A stretch of 64,000 nt of DNA. Origin: Euzebya pacifica. Lineage in GTDB: Bacteria > Actinomycetota > Nitriliruptoria > Euzebyales > Euzebyaceae. Both the position numbers and the translations under genes were made by a program. The DNA lies in the NCBI RefSeq assembly GCF_003344865.1, contig NZ_CP031165.1, positions 186,001-250,000 on the forward strand. The letters are read 5' to 3'. The notes below the pieces were generated by a model. It saw nothing but the letters and a program-made list of their open reading frames with translations. It did no database searches and was not told the origin of the DNA. Positions 21,643 to 31,555 of the stretch are shown one piece after another; within the stretch, counting starts at the first letter, position 1, and every line of letters begins with the position of its first letter.

Positions 21643-24510
21643 TCAGCCGTTGGCGGTCAGCCGGGCCAGCTGGTCGACGAGGACGGGCTGGGCGACGGGG
21701 CGGGACTCGAGGTGGCCGGGGGAGGGGTGGCCGGCCGCGCGGACCATGCTGGAGACCAACGGCCCGCAGACGCCGCCCTGGCAGCGGCCCATCCCACACC
21801 GGGTCAGGCCCTTGACGGCCCGGGCGTTGGTGGCGCCGTCGGCGATGGCCCGGCCAACGGCCTCGGCCGGCACCTCCTCGCACCGGCAGACCGTCACGTC
21901 GTCGGGCAGGCCCACCGTCCACTCGTCGTCCCACGGGTACAGGCGGGCCAGCGCGTCGCGGAACCCGTCCCAGCGACGCACGGCCCTGCGCGCGCCCGAG
22001 GGCACCGCCGGGCCGACCGTCGACGCCAGGATGGCCGCGCCGGCCAGGTGGCCCTCGGCGACCGCCTTGTCGGCTCCGGCCACCCCGGTCAGCTCGCCCG
22101 CCGCCCACACGCCGGGCACCGACGTCGACTGCTCGTCGTCGACCACCACGGCCGGTCCTGCGGTTCCCGGCCGGTTCACCAGCTCACATCCCAGCTGGAC
22201 CGCCAACGTCACGTCGGGCAGCAGCCCGTCGGAGACCGCCAGCGCGTCCACTGCCATCCGCGCCGTGCGGCCGGACGGGGCGCGCATGGCCACCTGCTCG
22301 ACCGCCTCGCCGTCTGCCGACGCGATGGCCTCGACGACCCGCCAGCCGAACCGTGGCGGCCGGCCACCCGTCAGCCGGGCGAGGTCGGCCAGCTTGCCCG
22401 GGTGCCCGAGGCCCACGGGCAGCCCACCGACCGCGAGCCGTCGCAGCGACTGGGCCTCCAGCGTCAGCAGCGGCGGCGTCCCCGCGGCACGCAGCGCCGA
22501 CGCGACCGCCAGCAACAACGGCCCGGTCCCCGCCAGCACAACCCGTTCCCAGGGGCTGTGACCCTCCTGCTTGACCATCGCCTGGGCGGCCCCCGCGGTC
22601 AGCACTCCCGGCAGCGTCCAGCCAGGGAACGGGCGCACGACCTCCCGGGCGCCGGTGGCCAGCACCAGGTGATCGGCCAGGACCAGCCGCAGCTCGTCGT
22701 CCACCGACACCATGACCTGGAACCGCCTGGTCGCCACCCCGGCGACCTGCTGCACGGCCACCACCTGCGCCCCGCCGAGGTGCTGGACGCCCCGGCTGCC
22801 GTCATCGATCAGCTCGGCCCAGGGCCCCGAGGGAGAGGCGGTACCGGCACGCTGTCGTCCGATCTGGCCACCAGCCGACGGATACCGGTCGACGAGCCCG
22901 ACCGACAGCCCGTTGCCACGCACCGTCGCCGCTGCGGCCAGGCCGCCGGGTCCCGCGCCGAGCACGGCCACATCGACATCCATCACCACCGAACCCGCAC
23001 CCGTCGAACCCGCCGCCGAGTCCGGACCGTCGTCAGCCCCCGACGGCTCGCCAGCGGTCGGTTCGCCAGCGGTCGGTTCCCCAGCGGTCGGCTCGGCAGC
23101 GGTCGGCTCGAGGCACGCCCTGACCGTGGTCCCGTCCGCCCGGGGCAGGACGCAGTCGTGGCAGTGGCCGATGCCGCAGAACAGGCCGCGGGGCCGATCC
23201 TCGAACCGGGTGCGCCGCCAGGACTGCTGCCCGTCGGCGAGCAGCGCCGCGGCGACGGTGCTGCCACGGCCTTCCTTTCCGCCCGTCAGCCCCGACCCAC
23301 ACGAACCGGTCGTCGACGCGCACGACGGGGAGAGCACGAACGGCGTCGGACCCGGCACCCGGTCCACGACGCGTTCGTCCGTGTCGTGCAACCGGCGGGG
23401 GTCGAACGCCTCGTCGGTGCGGCCAGCCAGCACGGACTCGGCCAGCACCTCGGCAGAGCCCAACGCCAGGCCGATACCCGCACCTTCGTGACCCGAGCAG
23501 TGGAACAACCCCTCCACCCGGACGTCCGGACCGATCAGCGGCAGGTGGTCCGGCGTGGCCGGCCGGAAGCCCTGGTAGGTCCGGATGATCCGCACCCTGC
23601 CCAGCGACGGGAACAACGACGCGGCGTTCCGGCTGAGCTCGCCGACCAGGTCCCAGCGCTGCTGGGTGTCCCAGCCGACGGCCTCGCGGGTCGAGCCGAT
23701 CAGCACCGTGCCCGAGACGGTCGACTCGATGACCGGTGCCACCTGGGCCGCCCCGTCGTCGCTCGCCACCGCCTCCACGTAGCGGCCGTCGTAGACCTTG
23801 TGGCGAACCGTCCCCGGCGGGAGGGGTTCGGTCACCAGCAGCAGGCCACGACGGGGGAACACCGGCGCCACGCCACCCAGCCGGGCAGCCAGCTCGCCCG
23901 ACCACGGGCCGGCCGCGAGGACGACGGCGTCGGCGTCGATCCGCGACCCGTCGGCCAGCTCGACACCCACCCCGGCGGTCAGGGACGACAGGCCGACCAC
24001 CGACACGCCGACCCGCTCCTCCACCCCCAGGTCGAGCGCCGCACGACGCAACGCCCGGACGGCGTGGATGGGCATGACCTGTGCGTCCTGCGGGAAGCTG
24101 ATGCCACCCACCAACCCGGGGGACAGCTGGGGCTCCATCTCGCGCAGCGCCGCCCGGCCCAGCACCACCGACTGCACGCCGAGCGGACGCTGCCCCTCGG
24201 CCTGCGCGGCCAGCAACCCGAGCTGGCTGTCGCTGCTGGCGGTGATGATGCCGCCCTTCTCCTCGAACTCGAACGGTTCGGCGGACTCCGCGGCGAAGGC
24301 CTTCCACAGCTCGATGGACCGCAGCGCCAGCCGCGCCTCGGCGGGGATCTCCTTGTCGCTGACGAGGATGTTCCCCTCGCCCCGGCTGGACGTGCCGGCG
24401 CCGGCGACGTGCCGTTCGACGACGGTGACCCGTGCACCTCGGCGCGCCAGCTCGCGGGCGGCCGCCAGGCCGATGATCCCGGCGCCAACGACCACGACGT
24501 GGGTGGTCAC
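21643..24510 (-). CDS. Three-subunit fusion D-hydroxyproline dehydrogenase
   Basis: The 955-residue chain joins three proteins that are normally separate. Residues 1-~385 are a DAO-type flavoprotein (VVVVGAGIIGLAAARELARR). Residues ~395-475 are a small [2Fe-2S] subunit (RGLFCGIGHCHDC, then RAC). Residues ~510-955 are the HcnB-like FAD subunit (VAVLGAGPGGLAAA) with a BFD-type [2Fe-2S] site (VCRCEEV; RCGMGRCQGGVC). The order corresponds to LhpB, LhpF and LhpE, which together oxidise cis-4-hydroxy-D-proline to pyrroline-4-hydroxy-2-carboxylate and pass electrons to the respiratory chain. A PTAGE tandem repeat links the last two parts. GTG 24510 lies 4 bases after the aldehyde dehydrogenase stop. 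Substrate is inferred from the operon; proline or sarcosine is possible. Confidence 0.85.
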   Translation of the reverse strand: MTTHVVVVGAGIIGLAAARELARRGARVTVVERHVAGAGTSSRGEGNILVSDKEIPAEARLALRSIELWKAFAAESAEPFEFEEKGGIITASSDSQLGLLAAQAEGQRPLGVQSVVLGRAALREMEPQLSPGLVGGISFPQDAQVMPIHAVRALRRAALDLGVEERVGVSVVGLSSLTAGVGVELADGSRIDADAVVLAAGPWSGELAARLGGVAPVFPRRGLLLVTEPLPPGTVRHKVYDGRYVEAVASDDGAAQVAPVIESTVSGTVLIGSTREAVGWDTQQRWDLVGELSRNAASLFPSLGRVRIIRTYQGFRPATPDHLPLIGPDVRVEGLFHCSGHEGAGIGLALGSAEVLAESVLAGRTDEAFDPRRLHDTDERVVDRVPGPTPFVLSPSCASTTGSCGSGLTGGKEGRGSTVAAALLADGQQSWRRTRFEDRPRGLFCGIGHCHDCVLPRADGTTVRACLEPTAAEPTAGEPTAGEPTAGEPSGADDGPDSAAGSTGAGSVVMDVDVAVLGAGPGGLAAAATVRGNGLSVGLVDRYPSAGGQIGRQRAGTASPSGPWAELIDDGSRGVQHLGGAQVVAVQQVAGVATRRFQVMVSVDDELRLVLADHLVLATGAREVVRPFPGWTLPGVLTAGAAQAMVKQEGHSPWERVVLAGTGPLLLAVASALRAAGTPPLLTLEAQSLRRLAVGGLPVGLGHPGKLADLARLTGGRPPRFGWRVVEAIASADGEAVEQVAMRAPSGRTARMAVDALAVSDGLLPDVTLAVQLGCELVNRPGTAGPAVVVDDEQSTSVPGVWAAGELTGVAGADKAVAEGHLAGAAILASTVGPAVPSGARRAVRRWDGFRDALARLYPWDDEWTVGLPDDVTVCRCEEVPAEAVGRAIADGATNARAVKGLTRCGMGRCQGGVCGPLVSSMVRAAGHPSPGHLESRPVAQPVLVDQLARLTANG

Positions 24511-24514
24511 CGAG

Positions 24515-26029
24515 CTACTGCGCCCAGGTGGGCAGCGCGTCGTCGGAGAAGGACTGGAAGGCCACCGGTCGACGGAACCGGTCGATGGCGGCCAGCCCGA
24601 CGCTGGTGTGCAGCGGCGCGGTGGTCGCCGGGTACGGGCCGCCGTGGTGCTGGCCGGGGCTGACCCGAACACCCGTCGGGTAGCCGTTGGCGATGACCCG
24701 ACCGACCTTGCGGGCCAGCCGGTCGGCCATGCTGCGCGCCCACGACGACTCCTCGGGGGTGAAGTGCAGCGACGCGGTCAGGGCCGGCTCGAACGCGTCG
24801 ACGACCTCGTCCAGCTCGTCGTCACCGGCGAGCACGACCAGGGTTGCCGGACCGAACACCTCCTCGCGAAGGACCGGCTCGTCGACGAACGTGGCGGCGT
24901 CGGTGGACAGCACGGCCGCGGCACACCCACCGTCGGCATCGGGGGCGCGGACGACCTCGACGCCGTCCACGGCCGCCGCACGGTCCAGCCCCTCGACGAA
25001 GCCGCTGACGATCCCGCCGTGCAGGAGCGGGTGGCCCGGCGTCCGATCGCCCAGCGCGTCGCAGAGACCGGTCAGCACGGCACGGCCGTTGTCGTCGTCG
25101 GGCAGCACGATCAGCCCGGGCTTGGTGCAGAACTGGCCCTCGCCCAGCAGGTAGCTGCCGGAGATCCCCTCGACCATGCCAGCCACGTCGGCCGCCGCAC
25201 CGGCGGAGACGACCAGCGGGTTCAACGACCCCATCTCGGCGTACACGGGGATCGGACGGGGCCGTGTGGCGGCCAGGTCGAACAGGGCACGGCCGCCGCG
25301 CAGGCTGCCGGTGAACGCCACGGCGTCGACGTCGGGGTGCGTGACCAGCGCCTGGCCGACCTCGTGGCCCCCTTCGTGCAGCACCGAGATCATCCCCTCG
25401 GCGAGGCCAGCGGACCGCAGGCCCTCGGCGAGCAGCCGACCGCACAGCTCGGCGGTGGCCGGCTGGGCCGGGTGGGCCTTGGCGACGACCGGGCAGCCGG
25501 CGCCGAGGGCGGCAGCGGTGTCGGTACCGGCGACGCCGAACGCCAGCGGGAAGTTGGAGGCGGCGAACACCGCGACCACGCCGAGCGGCACCGTGGTGCG
25601 GTGCAGCGCCGGGGCGGCCGGGCCATCGCCGGCCGGGTCGACCACGACATCACGACGGCTGCCCGTGCGGGCCTCGGTCGCCATCATCCGCAGCTGCCCG
25701 ACGGTGCGGGCCAGCTCGCCACGCAGCCGAATCTCGCCCAGGGCGGTCTCGGCGTCGGCGGTGGCGACCACGACATCGGCGGCGGCCTCGAACGCATCGG
25801 CGGCCGCCTCCAGCCCCTCGGCGATCGCGGCCATGTCGATCGGGTCGGCCAGCGCCTCGACGGCGGCGGTGACGGCGTCGTCCAGCTGGTCGAACCCGAC
25901 GGTGGTGTAGCTGGGTGTCAGCGCCTGACCCGTGCGTGGGTCGGTGGCGGAGAAGGCGTCGCCGTCACCTGCGGTGGGCTGGCCGGCGATGACGGACTGG
26001 CCGGTCGGCTGGATGGAGGAGGTGGTCAT
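24515..26029 (-). CDS. Alpha-ketoglutarate semialdehyde dehydrogenase
   Basis: The 504-residue protein is an NAD(P)-dependent aldehyde dehydrogenase of the ketoglutarate-semialdehyde type, recognisable from the start TDPRTGQALTPSY and the absence of the usual N-terminal arm. Catalytic Cys is in GEGQFCTKPG (about 300) and the general-base Glu in YAEMGSLNP (about 262). Nucleotide-binding segments are VFAASNFPLAFGVAGTDT and AFTGSLRGGRALF. It would complete hydroxyproline breakdown by oxidising the semialdehyde to 2-oxoglutarate. It lies between the epimerase (45-base gap) and the dehydrogenase fusion (4-base gap) in the minus-strand operon. Confidence 0.88.
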   Translation of the reverse strand: MTTSSIQPTGQSVIAGQPTAGDGDAFSATDPRTGQALTPSYTTVGFDQLDDAVTAAVEALADPIDMAAIAEGLEAAADAFEAAADVVVATADAETALGEIRLRGELARTVGQLRMMATEARTGSRRDVVVDPAGDGPAAPALHRTTVPLGVVAVFAASNFPLAFGVAGTDTAAALGAGCPVVAKAHPAQPATAELCGRLLAEGLRSAGLAEGMISVLHEGGHEVGQALVTHPDVDAVAFTGSLRGGRALFDLAATRPRPIPVYAEMGSLNPLVVSAGAAADVAGMVEGISGSYLLGEGQFCTKPGLIVLPDDDNGRAVLTGLCDALGDRTPGHPLLHGGIVSGFVEGLDRAAAVDGVEVVRAPDADGGCAAAVLSTDAATFVDEPVLREEVFGPATLVVLAGDDELDEVVDAFEPALTASLHFTPEESSWARSMADRLARKVGRVIANGYPTGVRVSPGQHHGGPYPATTAPLHTSVGLAAIDRFRRPVAFQSFSDDALPTWAQ

Positions 26030-26074: not shown

Positions 26075-27079
26075 TCAGCCGAGCAGGAAGCCCTCTGACC
26101 AGGGGTCGGTGGGGTCCAGTACGAGCTGGTTCAGGCCGGTCACCCACGCGCGACCGGTGATGGAGGGCACGACCGCCGGTAGCTCCCCGACCGTAGTGGT
26201 CCCCAGCAGCTGGCCGGTGAACCGCGAGTCGATGATGGAGGTGTGGACGAACGGCGTGTCCAGCGCCAGGTCGCCTCGGGCGTGCATGGATGCCATGCGG
26301 GCCGAGGTGCCGGTGCCGCAGGGCGAGCGGTCGAGGTACCCGGGGTCGATGACGACGGCCCCCCGACCGTCCACCTCGTCGTCACCGGGCGCGGTCACGA
26401 GGACGTGGTGGGTGCCGGCGATGTCGGGCCGTTCCGGATGGACGATGTCGAGCTGGTCGTTGGCGGCCGCCATCACGCGCATGCCGGCGTATAGGACGGT
26501 GCCGGCGTGCTCGGGCCGGAGGGTGACGTCGAGGTCGTCAGCGGAGACGAGCACGTAGAAGTTGCCGCCGTAGGCCACGTCGACGGTGACCTCACCGATG
26601 CCCTCGACCTTCACGACGGCGTCGCGCAGCAGCAGGAAGGAGGGGACGTTGCGAAGGGTGACGGACGTGCAGGCGCCGTCGACGACGCTTGCCTCGGCGA
26701 CGACCAGGCCGGCCGGGGTGTCCAGCCGCACGGTCGTGACCGGTTCGATGACCTGGACCAGCCCGGTCTCCACGGCGGCCGTGACCGCGCCGATGGTCCC
26801 GTGGCCGCACATGGGCAGGCAGCCGGTGACCTCGATGTAGACCACGCCGAGGTCGGCATCCGGACGGGTCGGCGGGCACAGGATCGCCCCCGACATCGCC
26901 TGGTGGCCACGCGGCTCGAACATCAGCAGCTTGCGCCAGCCGTCCAGCGTCGTGGCGACGTGGTGGCTGCGCTCGGCCATCGTCTCGCCGGGCAGCACGC
27001 CGAACCCGGAGGTGACCACCCGGGTCGGCATGCCCTCGGTGTGGGTGTCGACGGCGGTGAAGACCTTCCTCGCTCGCAT
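26075..27079 (-). CDS. lhpA: 4-hydroxyproline 2-epimerase (proline racemase family)
   Basis: The 334-residue protein has both catalytic cysteines of the racemase/epimerase branch: Cys91 in LPMCGHGTIG and Cys254 in RSPCGTGTSA. The dehydratase branch has Thr at the second position, so this one should invert C2, converting trans-4-hydroxy-L-proline to cis-4-hydroxy-D-proline. Sequence alone does not separate proline racemase from hydroxyproline epimerase, but the next three enzymes of the hydroxyproline pathway flank it. ATG 27079 is 11 bases after the deaminase stop, with GAGGT upstream. Confidence 0.87.
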   Translation of the reverse strand: MRARKVFTAVDTHTEGMPTRVVTSGFGVLPGETMAERSHHVATTLDGWRKLLMFEPRGHQAMSGAILCPPTRPDADLGVVYIEVTGCLPMCGHGTIGAVTAAVETGLVQVIEPVTTVRLDTPAGLVVAEASVVDGACTSVTLRNVPSFLLLRDAVVKVEGIGEVTVDVAYGGNFYVLVSADDLDVTLRPEHAGTVLYAGMRVMAAANDQLDIVHPERPDIAGTHHVLVTAPGDDEVDGRGAVVIDPGYLDRSPCGTGTSARMASMHARGDLALDTPFVHTSIIDSRFTGQLLGTTTVGELPAVVPSITGRAWVTGLNQLVLDPTDPWSEGFLLG

Positions 27080-27090
27080 CGCGGTCGACC

Positions 27091-27978
27091 TCAGCCCTTG
27101 CCGGCGGCGAGGGCGCGACGGGCGTCGGCGCGGACCTGCTGCTCGACATCGGCCGGCAGGGGCAGGCGGGGCAGCCTGGACGGGCCGCCGTACCGGCCGG
27201 CCTCCTCCTGACCCAGCTTGATGGCCTGCACGAAGCGTGGTTCGGCGTCCCAGCGGAGGATGGGGAGCATCTCGTCGTACAGCGCGAGGGCGTCGGCGAT
27301 CTTGCCGGACTCCGACAGCTCCAGCAGGCGGACCGACTGCTCGGGGAAGGCGTTGACGAACCCGCTGATCCAGCCGCGGGTGCCGACCAGCGCCGACTCG
27401 ACCAGGACGTCGTCGCAGCCGCAGATGACCTGCAGCTGGGGGACCAGGTCGGCGAGGTGGCGGACCCGGCGGACGTCCATGGAGAACTCCTTGAGCCCGA
27501 CGACCTGCGGAACGGCCTCCACGGTCTTGGCCATCAGCGCCGGCACCAGGTCCACCCGGGTCGACCACGGGTTGTTGTAGGCGATGATCGGCACACCGAC
27601 CTCGGCCACGTGGGCGTAGTGGGCGACGACCTCGTCGTCGGTGGGGGCGTGCGACGTCGGGGGCAGCAGCATGACGGCAGGGCAGCCGTGGGCGGCGGCC
27701 TGCTCGGTCCAGCGCCGGGCCTCACCGGCGGACTTGCCGGCCACGCCGGGGATGACCCGGTCGGCACCGACGGCAGCGACGGCGGCGTCGACGACCGCAG
27801 CCCGTTCCTCGTCGGTCAGCGCCTCGTACTCGCCGAGCGAGCCGTTGACGACGACGCCCTCGCAACCGGACTCCACCAGCCACGCGCAGTGCTCGGCGAA
27901 GCGGTCGAGGTCCAGGGTGAGGTCGTCACGGAAGGGAAGGGTGGTGGCGGGCCAGACCCCGCGGAGCACGTCAGTCAT
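27091..27978 (-). CDS. lhpC: Delta1-pyrroline-4-hydroxy-2-carboxylate deaminase (DapA family)
   Basis: The 295-residue protein is a class I aldolase-type barrel of the dihydrodipicolinate synthase family. It has GSLGEYEALT, Tyr134 in IIAYNNPWSTRVD and the Schiff-base Lys163 in VVGLKEFSMD. In hydroxyproline operons this family member deaminates pyrroline-4-hydroxy-2-carboxylate to alpha-ketoglutarate semialdehyde. It is the first gene of the minus-strand operon, with its start 35 bases from the shared operator. Other DapA-family lyases are possible on sequence alone; the neighbours decide. Confidence 0.86.
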   Translation of the reverse strand: MTDVLRGVWPATTLPFRDDLTLDLDRFAEHCAWLVESGCEGVVVNGSLGEYEALTDEERAAVVDAAVAAVGADRVIPGVAGKSAGEARRWTEQAAAHGCPAVMLLPPTSHAPTDDEVVAHYAHVAEVGVPIIAYNNPWSTRVDLVPALMAKTVEAVPQVVGLKEFSMDVRRVRHLADLVPQLQVICGCDDVLVESALVGTRGWISGFVNAFPEQSVRLLELSESGKIADALALYDEMLPILRWDAEPRFVQAIKLGQEEAGRYGGPSRLPRLPLPADVEQQVRADARRALAAGKG

Positions 27979-28077: not shown

Positions 28078-29280
28078 GTGGACGACATGGACGTCACGCT
28101 GCTGCAGGAGGTCGTGAACGCGCTCAGTCGGGACGTCGAGCGGCCGGTGGTGCTCGAGGACGAGGACCAGCAGCCGATCGTGCACAGCCCTCATTACGGG
28201 CAGACCGACCGGATGCGTCGGGACACCATCATGCACAAGTCCACCAGCAAGGAGACGGTGGAGTACTTCAGGCGTTATGACCTGGCCTCGCGGACCGAGC
28301 CGTTCGTCGTCCCGGGCAACGAACGTGGCGTCCTGCCCCGGCTGTGTGTGCCCCTGCGCTACGACGAGAAGCTGCTGGGCTACGTATGGGTCCTCCTCCC
28401 GGATGAGGAGATGTCCGACGACCACCGACGAGCGGTCGAACGCGTCAGGGAACCGCTCGCCGAAACGCTGTGGTTGGACCGCCTCTCCCGCCTTCGCGAG
28501 GGACGAATCGTCGAGGACCTCCTCAATGACGACCACGACCGGCGGCTGCGTGGCCTCGTCGCCGTCGAAGCGAAGCACGCCTTCGATGCGCCGGCGAGGA
28601 CCATGGTCCTCGTGGCCGTCGGCCCCGGCTGGGCGGTTCGTGCGGCCAGGCGGGCCTTCGTGATGCAGCGATGGGTAGCCGACCCGGCTTCACAGCTGCG
28701 GCTGGTCGACGTCGACGAGGGCGTGGCTGTCGTTGCCCACATCGCCTCGGGCAGGGATGCCGCGGATGGGGTGCTGGCGGGGGGACTCGATCTCGATGCG
28801 CTGGAACGGTCCATGGGACAGATCAACCGAGTCACCGACGGTTTGCCAGTCATGCTGGGCGTCGGTCCGTCCGTCGCCTCCCCTGGCGCGCTGCCCCGCT
28901 CCCACCGAAGGGCCCGGCAGGCGGCAACTGTCGCCCTGCGGATCGGTCCTTCCAAGGGCTTCGTTTCGACGTGGGAGGGGCTGGGCGTTTACCGGCTGCT
29001 GGTCCAGCTGCCACGCGACGCGCTTGCCGACGGCGTCGACCCGCGGTTGGTCGGCCTCATCCAGGACGTACCGGAGGTGGCCGCCACATTGGAGGTCTAC
29101 CTGGACGGCGGTGGAGCGGTAGCGGCCGCAGCCGACACCCTGCACATCCATCGCACCACCCTCTACTACCGACTGGAGAAGGTGACCGAGGCGGGTTTCG
29201 ACCTGCACTCGGGAACCGATCGCATGACAATCCAGGTCGGGTTCGCCGCGCTGCGCCTGCTTGGACGCTGGCCGGCTTGA
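28078..29280 (+). CDS. PucR/CdaR-type transcriptional regulator
   Basis: The 400-residue protein has an N-terminal sensory part (1-~140, GAF-like), a middle CdaR/GGDEF-like region without a cyclase motif and a C-terminal HTH_30 domain (VAAAADTLHIHRTTLYYRLE, followed by a conserved LRLL end). PucR-type proteins are usually ligand-responsive activators of nitrogen- or carbon-compound catabolism. Its position between the hydroxyproline operon and the hyu/ABC/peptidase operon, with matching palindromes at both promoters, makes it the probable regulator of both. The start is GTG 28078 or ATG 28087; neither has a clear ribosome-binding site. Confidence 0.85.
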   Translation: MDDMDVTLLQEVVNALSRDVERPVVLEDEDQQPIVHSPHYGQTDRMRRDTIMHKSTSKETVEYFRRYDLASRTEPFVVPGNERGVLPRLCVPLRYDEKLLGYVWVLLPDEEMSDDHRRAVERVREPLAETLWLDRLSRLREGRIVEDLLNDDHDRRLRGLVAVEAKHAFDAPARTMVLVAVGPGWAVRAARRAFVMQRWVADPASQLRLVDVDEGVAVVAHIASGRDAADGVLAGGLDLDALERSMGQINRVTDGLPVMLGVGPSVASPGALPRSHRRARQAATVALRIGPSKGFVSTWEGLGVYRLLVQLPRDALADGVDPRLVGLIQDVPEVAATLEVYLDGGGAVAAAADTLHIHRTTLYYRLEKVTEAGFDLHSGTDRMTIQVGFAALRLLGRWPA

Positions 29281-29482: not shown

Positions 29483-31555
29483 ATGGCAGACAGGACACGG
29501 CTTGCGATCGACGTCGGCGGCACCTTCACCGACGTCGTCCGCCTGACACCGGACACCGGCGAGCTCCGTTTCGAGAAGGTGCCCACCACCCCCGACGCAC
29601 CGACCGATGGGGTCATGGCTGCCTTCGAACGGGCCGATGTGGCACCCAGCGACGTCGTGATGTTCAACCACGGCACCACGCTTGGACTGAACGCCCTGCT
29701 CACCCGTACTGGGGCACGGATCGCGGTCGTCGGCACGAAGGGGTTCCGCGACGTGTACTTGCTCGGCCGCACTGACCGCCGAACCAACTACGACATCACC
29801 CATCGCAAGCCCCAGCCACTGCTCGAGCGGTACGACACCTTCGAGGTGGCGGAACGGAGCACCTTCGACGGCGGAGTCCACCAGCCGTTGGACACCGACG
29901 ATGCTCGACACGTCGCCGAAACCCTCGCCGAGCGAGGGTACGACGCCGTCGCGGTGGCCTTCCTCCATGCCTACGCCAACCCGGCCCACGAACTGGCGAT
30001 GCGCGAGATCCTCAACGAGGTCGCCCCGGGTCTGGAGGTGACGCTCTCCCACGAACTCTCACGTGAGTATCGGGAGTACGAGCGCACCAGCACGGCCGTC
30101 CTCGACGCCTACATCAAGCCCATCGTCAGGCGCTACCTCCAGCAGCTCGACGCGGAGCTGACCGACCGGGGGTTCACCGGTCGCTTCCTGATGACCCGGT
30201 CCGGTGGGGGCGCGATGACAGCCACCGCAGCCCGTGACCAACCGGTCAATCTGATCCTCTCCGGTCCTGCCGGAGGGGTCATTGGTGCAGCCGCGCTGGC
30301 ACCCAGTCTCGGCCAGCCGAACCTCATCACCATCGACATGGGTGGCACGTCCCTCGACGCGTCGCTGGTCATCGACGGGGAGCCGGTCAGCCACCAGGGT
30401 GCCGAGTTCGAGCACATGCCGATCAACACGCCATCGCTGTACATCCACACCATCGGCGCCGGTGGTGGCTCGATCGGCTGGCTCGACGAGGCCGGTGCCC
30501 TGCAGGTCGGTCCGCAGAGCGCCGGAGCGATGCCCGGACCCGCCTCGTACGGTCGTGGTGGAACCGAGCCCACGTTCACCGACGCAGCGCTGGTCCTCGG
30601 CTACTTGGGCGGCGACACCCCGTTGGGTGGCACGCTCCAGCTCGACCGTGACCTGGCCGAGAAGTCCCTCGAACCTGTCGCCGCGGCGCTGTCGTTGACG
30701 GTGCAGGCCCTCGCGAAGGGCATGGTTCAGATCTCCGCGACGAAGATCATGGGAGCCGTTCGCGCCATCACCGTCGAGCTGGGTCGTGATCCCAAGGACT
30801 TCGCCCTCCTGGCGTTCGGCGGTGGCGGCGGTCTGGTGGCCGTGGACGTCGCCAGGGAACTGCAGATTCCCACGGTCGTCGTCCCACCGGGGCAGGGCGC
30901 GTTCTCTGCGCTGGGCATGCTCGTCGCCGACGTCCAACACGACTTCGCCCGCACCGCCGTCACACCCTTGGAGGGTGTCGAGCTCCGCGTCCTCGAGGAA
31001 TCGTTCGTCGAGATGGAGACCGAGGCTGCCGAGGTGCTCCGCGAGGAGGGCTTCACGCCGGACCGCACCCAGCTGCTGCGCAGCGTTGACGTGCGGTACG
31101 CAGGTCAAGAGCACAGCGTCACCGTCTCCTACCCCTCCACTGGACTGGATCCGGTCAGCGCGATCGAGCAGCAGTTCTCCGAACTCCACGAGCGGCAGTA
31201 CGGCCACACGATGCAGGACCCGGTCGAGCTGACGACACTCAGGGTTCGGGCGGTCGGGATCGTGGACAAGCCCGAGCTGCCGCAGATGGCCAGCCGCACC
31301 GACGACGGACCCCCGTCCCTGGGGACCCGGCCCGTCTACGTCGACATCGACAACCCCGCCGTCCCCTACGGCTTGTACGAGCGCGAATCGCTGCTTGCCG
31401 GTGACACCGTCGAAGGGCCGGCGGTGGTCACCGAACACACCGCCACGACCGTCCTGCACATCGGCGACAGCCTGCGCGTGGGTGACCACGGCGAGCTGGT
31501 CATCGACGTGTCGCCGACCCCCTCCGCCAGGACCGCCAAGGAGCACGTCGCATGA
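29483..31555 (+). CDS. hyuA: Hydantoinase/oxoprolinase family protein, ATP-binding subunit
   Basis: The 690-residue protein is a HyuA-type subunit: N-terminal IDVGGTFTDVVRL (from residue 9) is the phosphate-binding loop of the acetate/sugar kinase/actin fold, followed by FNHGTTLGLNALL and the hydantoinase core ending GGGGGLVAVDVARELQIP. With HyuB these enzymes hydrolyse cyclic amides such as N-methylhydantoin, 5-oxoproline or caprolactam at the cost of ATP. AAGGGATGACAG precedes the ATG. The start of hyuB overlaps by ATGA. It heads the operon with two upstream palindromes. Confidence 0.87.
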   Translation: MADRTRLAIDVGGTFTDVVRLTPDTGELRFEKVPTTPDAPTDGVMAAFERADVAPSDVVMFNHGTTLGLNALLTRTGARIAVVGTKGFRDVYLLGRTDRRTNYDITHRKPQPLLERYDTFEVAERSTFDGGVHQPLDTDDARHVAETLAERGYDAVAVAFLHAYANPAHELAMREILNEVAPGLEVTLSHELSREYREYERTSTAVLDAYIKPIVRRYLQQLDAELTDRGFTGRFLMTRSGGGAMTATAARDQPVNLILSGPAGGVIGAAALAPSLGQPNLITIDMGGTSLDASLVIDGEPVSHQGAEFEHMPINTPSLYIHTIGAGGGSIGWLDEAGALQVGPQSAGAMPGPASYGRGGTEPTFTDAALVLGYLGGDTPLGGTLQLDRDLAEKSLEPVAAALSLTVQALAKGMVQISATKIMGAVRAITVELGRDPKDFALLAFGGGGGLVAVDVARELQIPTVVVPPGQGAFSALGMLVADVQHDFARTAVTPLEGVELRVLEESFVEMETEAAEVLREEGFTPDRTQLLRSVDVRYAGQEHSVTVSYPSTGLDPVSAIEQQFSELHERQYGHTMQDPVELTTLRVRAVGIVDKPELPQMASRTDDGPPSLGTRPVYVDIDNPAVPYGLYERESLLAGDTVEGPAVVTEHTATTVLHIGDSLRVGDHGELVIDVSPTPSARTAKEHVA

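Follow-up and report, generated by a model that had tools for sequence, protein, structure and literature searches.

A fused beta-gamma-alpha gene of Euzebya probably encoding a single-chain D-hydroxyproline dehydrogenase

The fused gene and its operon

The window, i.e. the whole stretch of 64,000 nucleotides that was analysed, contains one stop-free frame of 955 codons plus a stop, with a GTG start, which is the last gene of a four-gene operon encoding a DHDPS family protein, a 4-hydroxyproline epimerase-like protein, an aldehyde dehydrogenase (ALDH), and the fused protein (Table 1). The order DHDPS-epimerase-ALDH-fusion is kept in the congeners G002 and G003 and in G022, a MAG from another family; in the third congener, G001, no ALDH gene is present between the epimerase and fusion genes. 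In unfused relatives, the DHDPS and epimerase genes adjoin the beta, gamma, and alpha genes. A PucR-type regulator adjoins the operon in the window's genome (G000) and also in G002 and G022, and it is encoded on the same strand in G003 and G001. In the window, a hydantoinase/oxoprolinase gene (29483-31555) lies directly after the regulator gene and opens a run of long plus-strand frames. The three pathway neighbours were assigned at the family level (4Hyp epimerase, Pyr4H2C deaminase, and KGSA dehydrogenase), with scores below the equivalog cut-offs (366.6 vs. 376 bits for the epimerase).

The initial annotation had placed all three subunits of the enzyme in a single frame, and this was confirmed by translation and by Pfam matches to DAO (residues 4-358; E = 1.5e-72), Fer2_4 (residues 415-470; E = 4e-11; only positions 17-71 of the 82 in the profile), Pyr_redox_2 (residues 513-678; E = 1e-26), and Fer2_BFD (residues 873-922; E = 1.5e-7). 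GxGxxG motifs are present in the beta (GAGIIG, residue 9) and alpha (GAGPGG, residue 518) domains, the gamma motif C-X4-C-X2-C-X12-C begins at residue 445, and the BFD-type cysteines of the alpha domain (C-X-C at residue 875 plus C-X4-C) are spaced like those of the Azospirillum and Streptomyces subunits. The R-X-W FMN motif was not found in the beta domain, where R-T-Y at residue 310 stands as its equivalent. Because R-X-Y is also present in the beta subunits of unfused actinobacterial relatives, among them a Streptomyces homologue, R-T-Y may be a lineage variant; the presence of FMN in the fused beta domain is uncertain, given R-T-Y instead of R-X-W. An AlphaFold model of the fused protein, based on an alignment of four rows, had a mean pLDDT of 39.6 and a pTM of 0.23, values too low for the model to be used.

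Table 1. Features of the fused gene and its operon in the window, with the permuted single-chain loci of other bacteria
Feature	Position	Strand	Basis or remark
Single 955-residue frame, beta (DAO)-gamma ([2Fe-2S])-alpha (FAD/BFD) fusion	21643..24510	-	Orthologous single frames in G002, G003, and G022
Beta-like DAO FAD domain, residues 1-372	23395..24510	-	Pfam DAO, motif scan, best PDB match 1y56_B
Linker 1, residues 373-414, fast evolving	23269..23394	-	Occupies the site of the gamma beta1-beta2 hairpin in unfused relatives
Truncated Fer2_4 gamma-like domain, residues 415-472	23095..23268	-	Pfam profile, gamma profile, motif
Linker 2, residues 473-508, containing most of the PTAGE repeat	22987..23094	-	
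15-bp tandem repeat, 4.5 copies, encoding PTAGE units	23044..23110	-	90% matches
ATG (residue 510) ahead of the third domain	22981..22983	-	Missing in three of five fused genes
Alpha-like FAD domain, HcnB/OoxA/NoxA type, residues 509-955	21646..22986	-	Pfam Pyr_redox_2, motif
BFD-like [2Fe-2S] segment, residues 873-922, C-X-C ... C-X4-C	21745..21894	-	Pfam, motif
Aldehyde dehydrogenase, likely alpha-ketoglutaric semialdehyde dehydrogenase	24515..26029	-	Stop 4 nt ahead of the fusion start
Proline racemase family, 4-hydroxyproline epimerase-like	26075..27067	-	Both catalytic Cys motifs present
DHDPS family protein, likely Pyr4H2C deaminase	27091..27978	-	
PucR-type regulator, divergent	28078..29280	+	
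Gamma-alpha-beta single-chain loci	L087 2929-5829; L095 2986-5940; L098 3992-6895; L096; L097		Plasmids of Alpha- and Betaproteobacteria

Distribution of the fusion

Besides the window's genome, three independently sequenced genomes, G002 (79% identity), G022 (62%), and G003 (49%), encode proteins that span the three domains in beta-gamma-alpha order with an identical one-frame architecture. The gene of G001 is cut within linker 1 by two contig ends, which is compatible with a fusion but no proof of it. Relatives were found at E <= 1e-40 in 16 of 66 genomes of the class, and a phylum sample of 396 genomes yielded matches at this threshold in 40, many of them to the DAO part only. Frame-by-frame re-reading, which covered plasmids and class-level genomes, those of Streptomyces type among them, identified separate beta, gamma, and alpha frames in all other three-part actinobacterial relatives inspected in this way, with the exception of one copy in the MAG G038. 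Apparent single frames in the search table for G364, G227, and G418 (Streptomyces-type and others) were resolved into separate genes by this reading. G038 itself contains two near-identical operon copies on different contigs (L040 and L041): gamma and alpha occupy separate frames in one copy, and the other has a single 564-codon gamma-alpha frame and a split epimerase gene. The join and the split are probably indel errors, and the two copies illustrate that a single indel is able to fuse gamma and alpha. In a contig search with the full protein, the sole match was to Streptomyces sp. AV19, which is unfused, and a search of viral contigs gave no match.

In the beta tree as well as in the alpha tree, the five fused sequences group together in a single clade (SH-aLRT 100), and one fusion event therefore suffices to account for them. 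The beta-gamma-alpha order was found only in the clade comprising the genus Euzebya and G022, with other phyla being sampled through plasmids alone. The G022 gene, although derived from another family, is closer to that of the window than is the gene of the congener G003, which suggests transfer or binning contamination. In the G022 gene (L036, 5858-8707), the FAD motif of the alpha domain is VVAGLGG, with valine in place of the first glycine of GxGxxG.

Predicted single-chain triple fusions are not unique to this clade. The 966-residue protein WP_174089364.1, encoded on plasmid pAt of Agrobacterium vitis, combines Fer2_4, Pyr_redox_2, and DAO in one chain, and one-piece homologues are present on plasmids of Rhizobium, Aureimonas, Azospirillum, and Variovorax, single frames having been confirmed for four. 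These gamma-alpha-beta proteins (including Azospirillum WP_137143392.1 and Aureimonas WP_244493230.1; about 970-985 residues) are known from sequence alone and carry only the annotation 'FAD-dependent oxidoreductase'. They resemble the window protein in uniting all three subunits in one chain and in having, where annotated, a DHDPS-family gene as a neighbour, but they differ in their permuted domain order, in their near-complete Fer2_4 domain, in their position in a separate clade of the trees, and in their other neighbours, which encode an amino acid ABC transporter and, at several of the loci, a hydantoinase. The initial statement that enzymes of this class use separate polypeptides thus holds for characterized enzymes but not for public sequences, which include these proteobacterial plasmid proteins. 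No paper describing a single-chain fusion of either order was found in the open-licence literature searched.

The gamma segment and the junctions

A complete Fer2_4 gamma fold was not found in the fused proteins. The Fer2_4 match of unfused gamma proteins begins at profile position 2-5 and scores 82-107 bits, whereas that of the fused gammas begins at position 17-19 and scores 40-48 bits, and G003 gave no match at E 0.001. With a gamma profile of 85 positions made from 22 unfused actinobacterial gammas, homology begins at position 22-24 in G000, G002, G022, and G001 and at position 50 in G003; the window segment spans positions 22-79. The N-terminal hairpin is accordingly missing in all five fused gammas and kept in all 22 unfused ones, and, judged by what is established about the ferredoxin fold, the part that is absent is its beta1-beta2 hairpin. 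The pattern C-X4-C-X2-C-X11-12-C is retained in the gamma segment of all five fused proteins, and their BFD cysteines are likewise intact. Little beyond the cysteine segment is left in the gamma part of G003, where a 21-bp repeat (L037, 8194-8328; 6.4 copies, EGRSPG units) lies at the expected place of the hairpin and first helix.

A pair of mutually compensating frameshifts in the N-terminal part of gamma was also considered. In its +2 frame, G000 encodes the hairpin-like sequence VVRVDDRFVWVGADG, but this candidate was rejected on its profile score of 0.3, compared with 29-45 for five unfused gammas; 86 of 500 synonymous recodings scored as high. A profile search of the +2 frame in G002, G022, and G001 yielded no gamma signal, and the score of 3.5 in G003 (equalled by 10 of 500 synonymous recodings) is far under that of any unfused gamma.

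Because the gamma N-terminal hairpin has been lost, the first junction is not the product of mere stop-codon loss. The proposed fusion of three subunits stands with regard to order and frame, but not as a simple join at this junction. The A. vitis fusion retains a near-complete Fer2_4 domain (profile positions 5-81), indicating that hairpin loss is not forced by fusion as such. Once tethered, the gamma domain was apparently free to erode. One tentative explanation is that the fused ferredoxin domain, freed from its stand-alone role, is eroding into a cluster-binding linker between the flavoprotein domains that would still carry electrons; the hairpin might then have been shed, together with the first helix in the case of G003, until little more than the cluster loop was left.

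The junctions also differ among the fused genes. The PTAGE array noted at the last junction is a real tandem repeat, but among the fused genes it is restricted to the window species, and a DPRRLTEP repeat is present in the linker region of G002. Linker 2 of G001 holds a 171-bp unit in 1.8 copies (L039, 9362-9676). Within this unit lies a DNA repeat for which 23 matches were found in the G001 genome, so that an interspersed repeat seems to have inserted into the coding linker without disturbing the frame; a search of the window's own genome for this repeat gave one weak match only.

The possibility that the long frame is an artefact of assembly or of missed stop codons in one genome is practically negligible. 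Nothing in its favour was found for the window gene itself, and indels can yield joins, as in one of the two G038 copies; however, the one-frame architecture recurs in independent genomes at 49-79% identity with differing linkers, the gamma hairpin is absent from all fused proteins, and purifying selection acts on the domains. The dN/dS values between the window gene and G002 are 0.18 (DAO), 0.35 (Fer2), and 0.13 (alpha), with 0.40 and 0.89 in the linkers. An assembly-induced fusion, the concern raised at the outset, is thereby ruled out. It is a different matter whether the continuous frame also gives rise to separate chains, either by internal initiation at the alpha ATG or by proteolysis of the linkers, which are long, unconserved, and repeat-rich and would be protease-sensitive. 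An ATG with upstream GTG codons does occur where alpha starts in the G000 and G002 genes, but it is missing in G022, G003, and G001, a distribution that also does not bear out its interpretation as the old start of the third gene. Moreover, the frame is held open in every fused species although the linkers diverge and take up repeats, and a complete gamma domain could not be restored from any start, so the production of separate chains appears unlikely.

Predicted function and significance

The D-hydroxyproline dehydrogenases of P. aeruginosa and Azospirillum brasilense and the opine dehydrogenase of P. putida use three chains, the characterized heteromeric enzymes are alpha4beta4gamma4, and 2 FAD, 1 FMN, and [2Fe-2S] were measured per alpha-beta-gamma unit of the homologous opine dehydrogenase (PMC4575208). 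In S. coelicolor, the counterpart belonging to this pathway is encoded by three genes, SCO6289-91 (PMC6608401). These three-subunit D-hydroxyproline dehydrogenases (LhpB/F/E in P. aeruginosa) share the domain types, beta-gamma-alpha gene order, pathway neighbours, and cysteine motifs of the window protein, which differs from them in being one chain, in its gamma domain without the N-terminal hairpin, and in having R-X-Y rather than R-X-W in the beta domain. As it is encoded in one frame instead of as three polypeptides, it was classed as a fused variant and not as an ordinary member. The opine dehydrogenases (OdhB-C-A; NoxA-NoxB, OoxA-OoxB) are homologous three-part enzymes with the same motifs (PMC4575208) but, unlike the window fusion, have separate chains and opine substrates. 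The archaeal dye-linked L-proline dehydrogenase PDH1 (1y56), which gave the best PDB match to the beta domain, is also related to alpha; its alpha chain carries the gamma part, and a gamma-alpha fusion was thus already known (PMC4575208), whereas its beta subunit is a separate chain and its substrate is L-proline.

Given the epimerase, DHDPS-family deaminase, and ALDH genes in the operon, the fused gene is best read as encoding a single-chain D-hydroxyproline dehydrogenase. Hydroxyproline is an amino acid of collagen. In the established route, trans-4-hydroxy-L-proline is converted via cis-4-hydroxy-D-proline, pyrroline-4-hydroxy-2-carboxylate, and alpha-ketoglutaric semialdehyde to alpha-ketoglutarate (PMC6608401, PMC4113996). 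The epimerase would catalyse the first step, yielding cis-4-hydroxy-D-proline, which the DAO (beta) domain would oxidize to pyrroline-4-hydroxy-2-carboxylate; the electrons would reach the alpha domain by way of flavin(s) and the [2Fe-2S] cluster that the gamma cysteines would bind, and an acceptor would take them up from there, and the deaminase and ALDH would complete the route to alpha-ketoglutarate. Substrate, cofactor content, electron path, and translation as one chain are what we infer for this protein.

The main substrate might instead be D-proline, an opine, or another secondary amine, as members of the beta subunit family have repeatedly switched substrate and subunits have been exchanged in opine dehydrogenases (PMC4575208), and NCBIfam assigns the fusion to no specific family above the cut-off. 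This is nevertheless very unlikely, because the operon with the epimerase-like, DHDPS, and ALDH genes is kept across fused and unfused relatives and the epimerase retains both cysteine motifs. We therefore consider it quite probable that the window protein is a single-chain FAD/[2Fe-2S] D-hydroxyproline dehydrogenase of the beta-gamma-alpha class that was fused once in the ancestor of the genus. The fusion, which also includes one MAG gene, would have arisen when three genes that overlapped were joined; the gamma hairpin would have been lost where beta meets gamma, and the linkers at both junctions evolve fast and are prone to repeats.

In the sequences compared, the beta-gamma-alpha fusion is real, clade-specific, and conserved in the genus, and its host is a deep-branching marine-type actinobacterium. 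Hydroxyproline breakdown itself is ordinary physiology. A natural one-chain dye-linked amino acid dehydrogenase of this kind would lend itself to structural studies of how electrons move from part to part and might also serve in biosensors. The two separate triple fusions, with their differing domain order, represent a natural experiment on the inter-subunit contacts that constrain the complex, and the ferredoxin scaffold, lost step by step while its cysteines were kept, raises the question of how little ferredoxin suffices when it is tethered.
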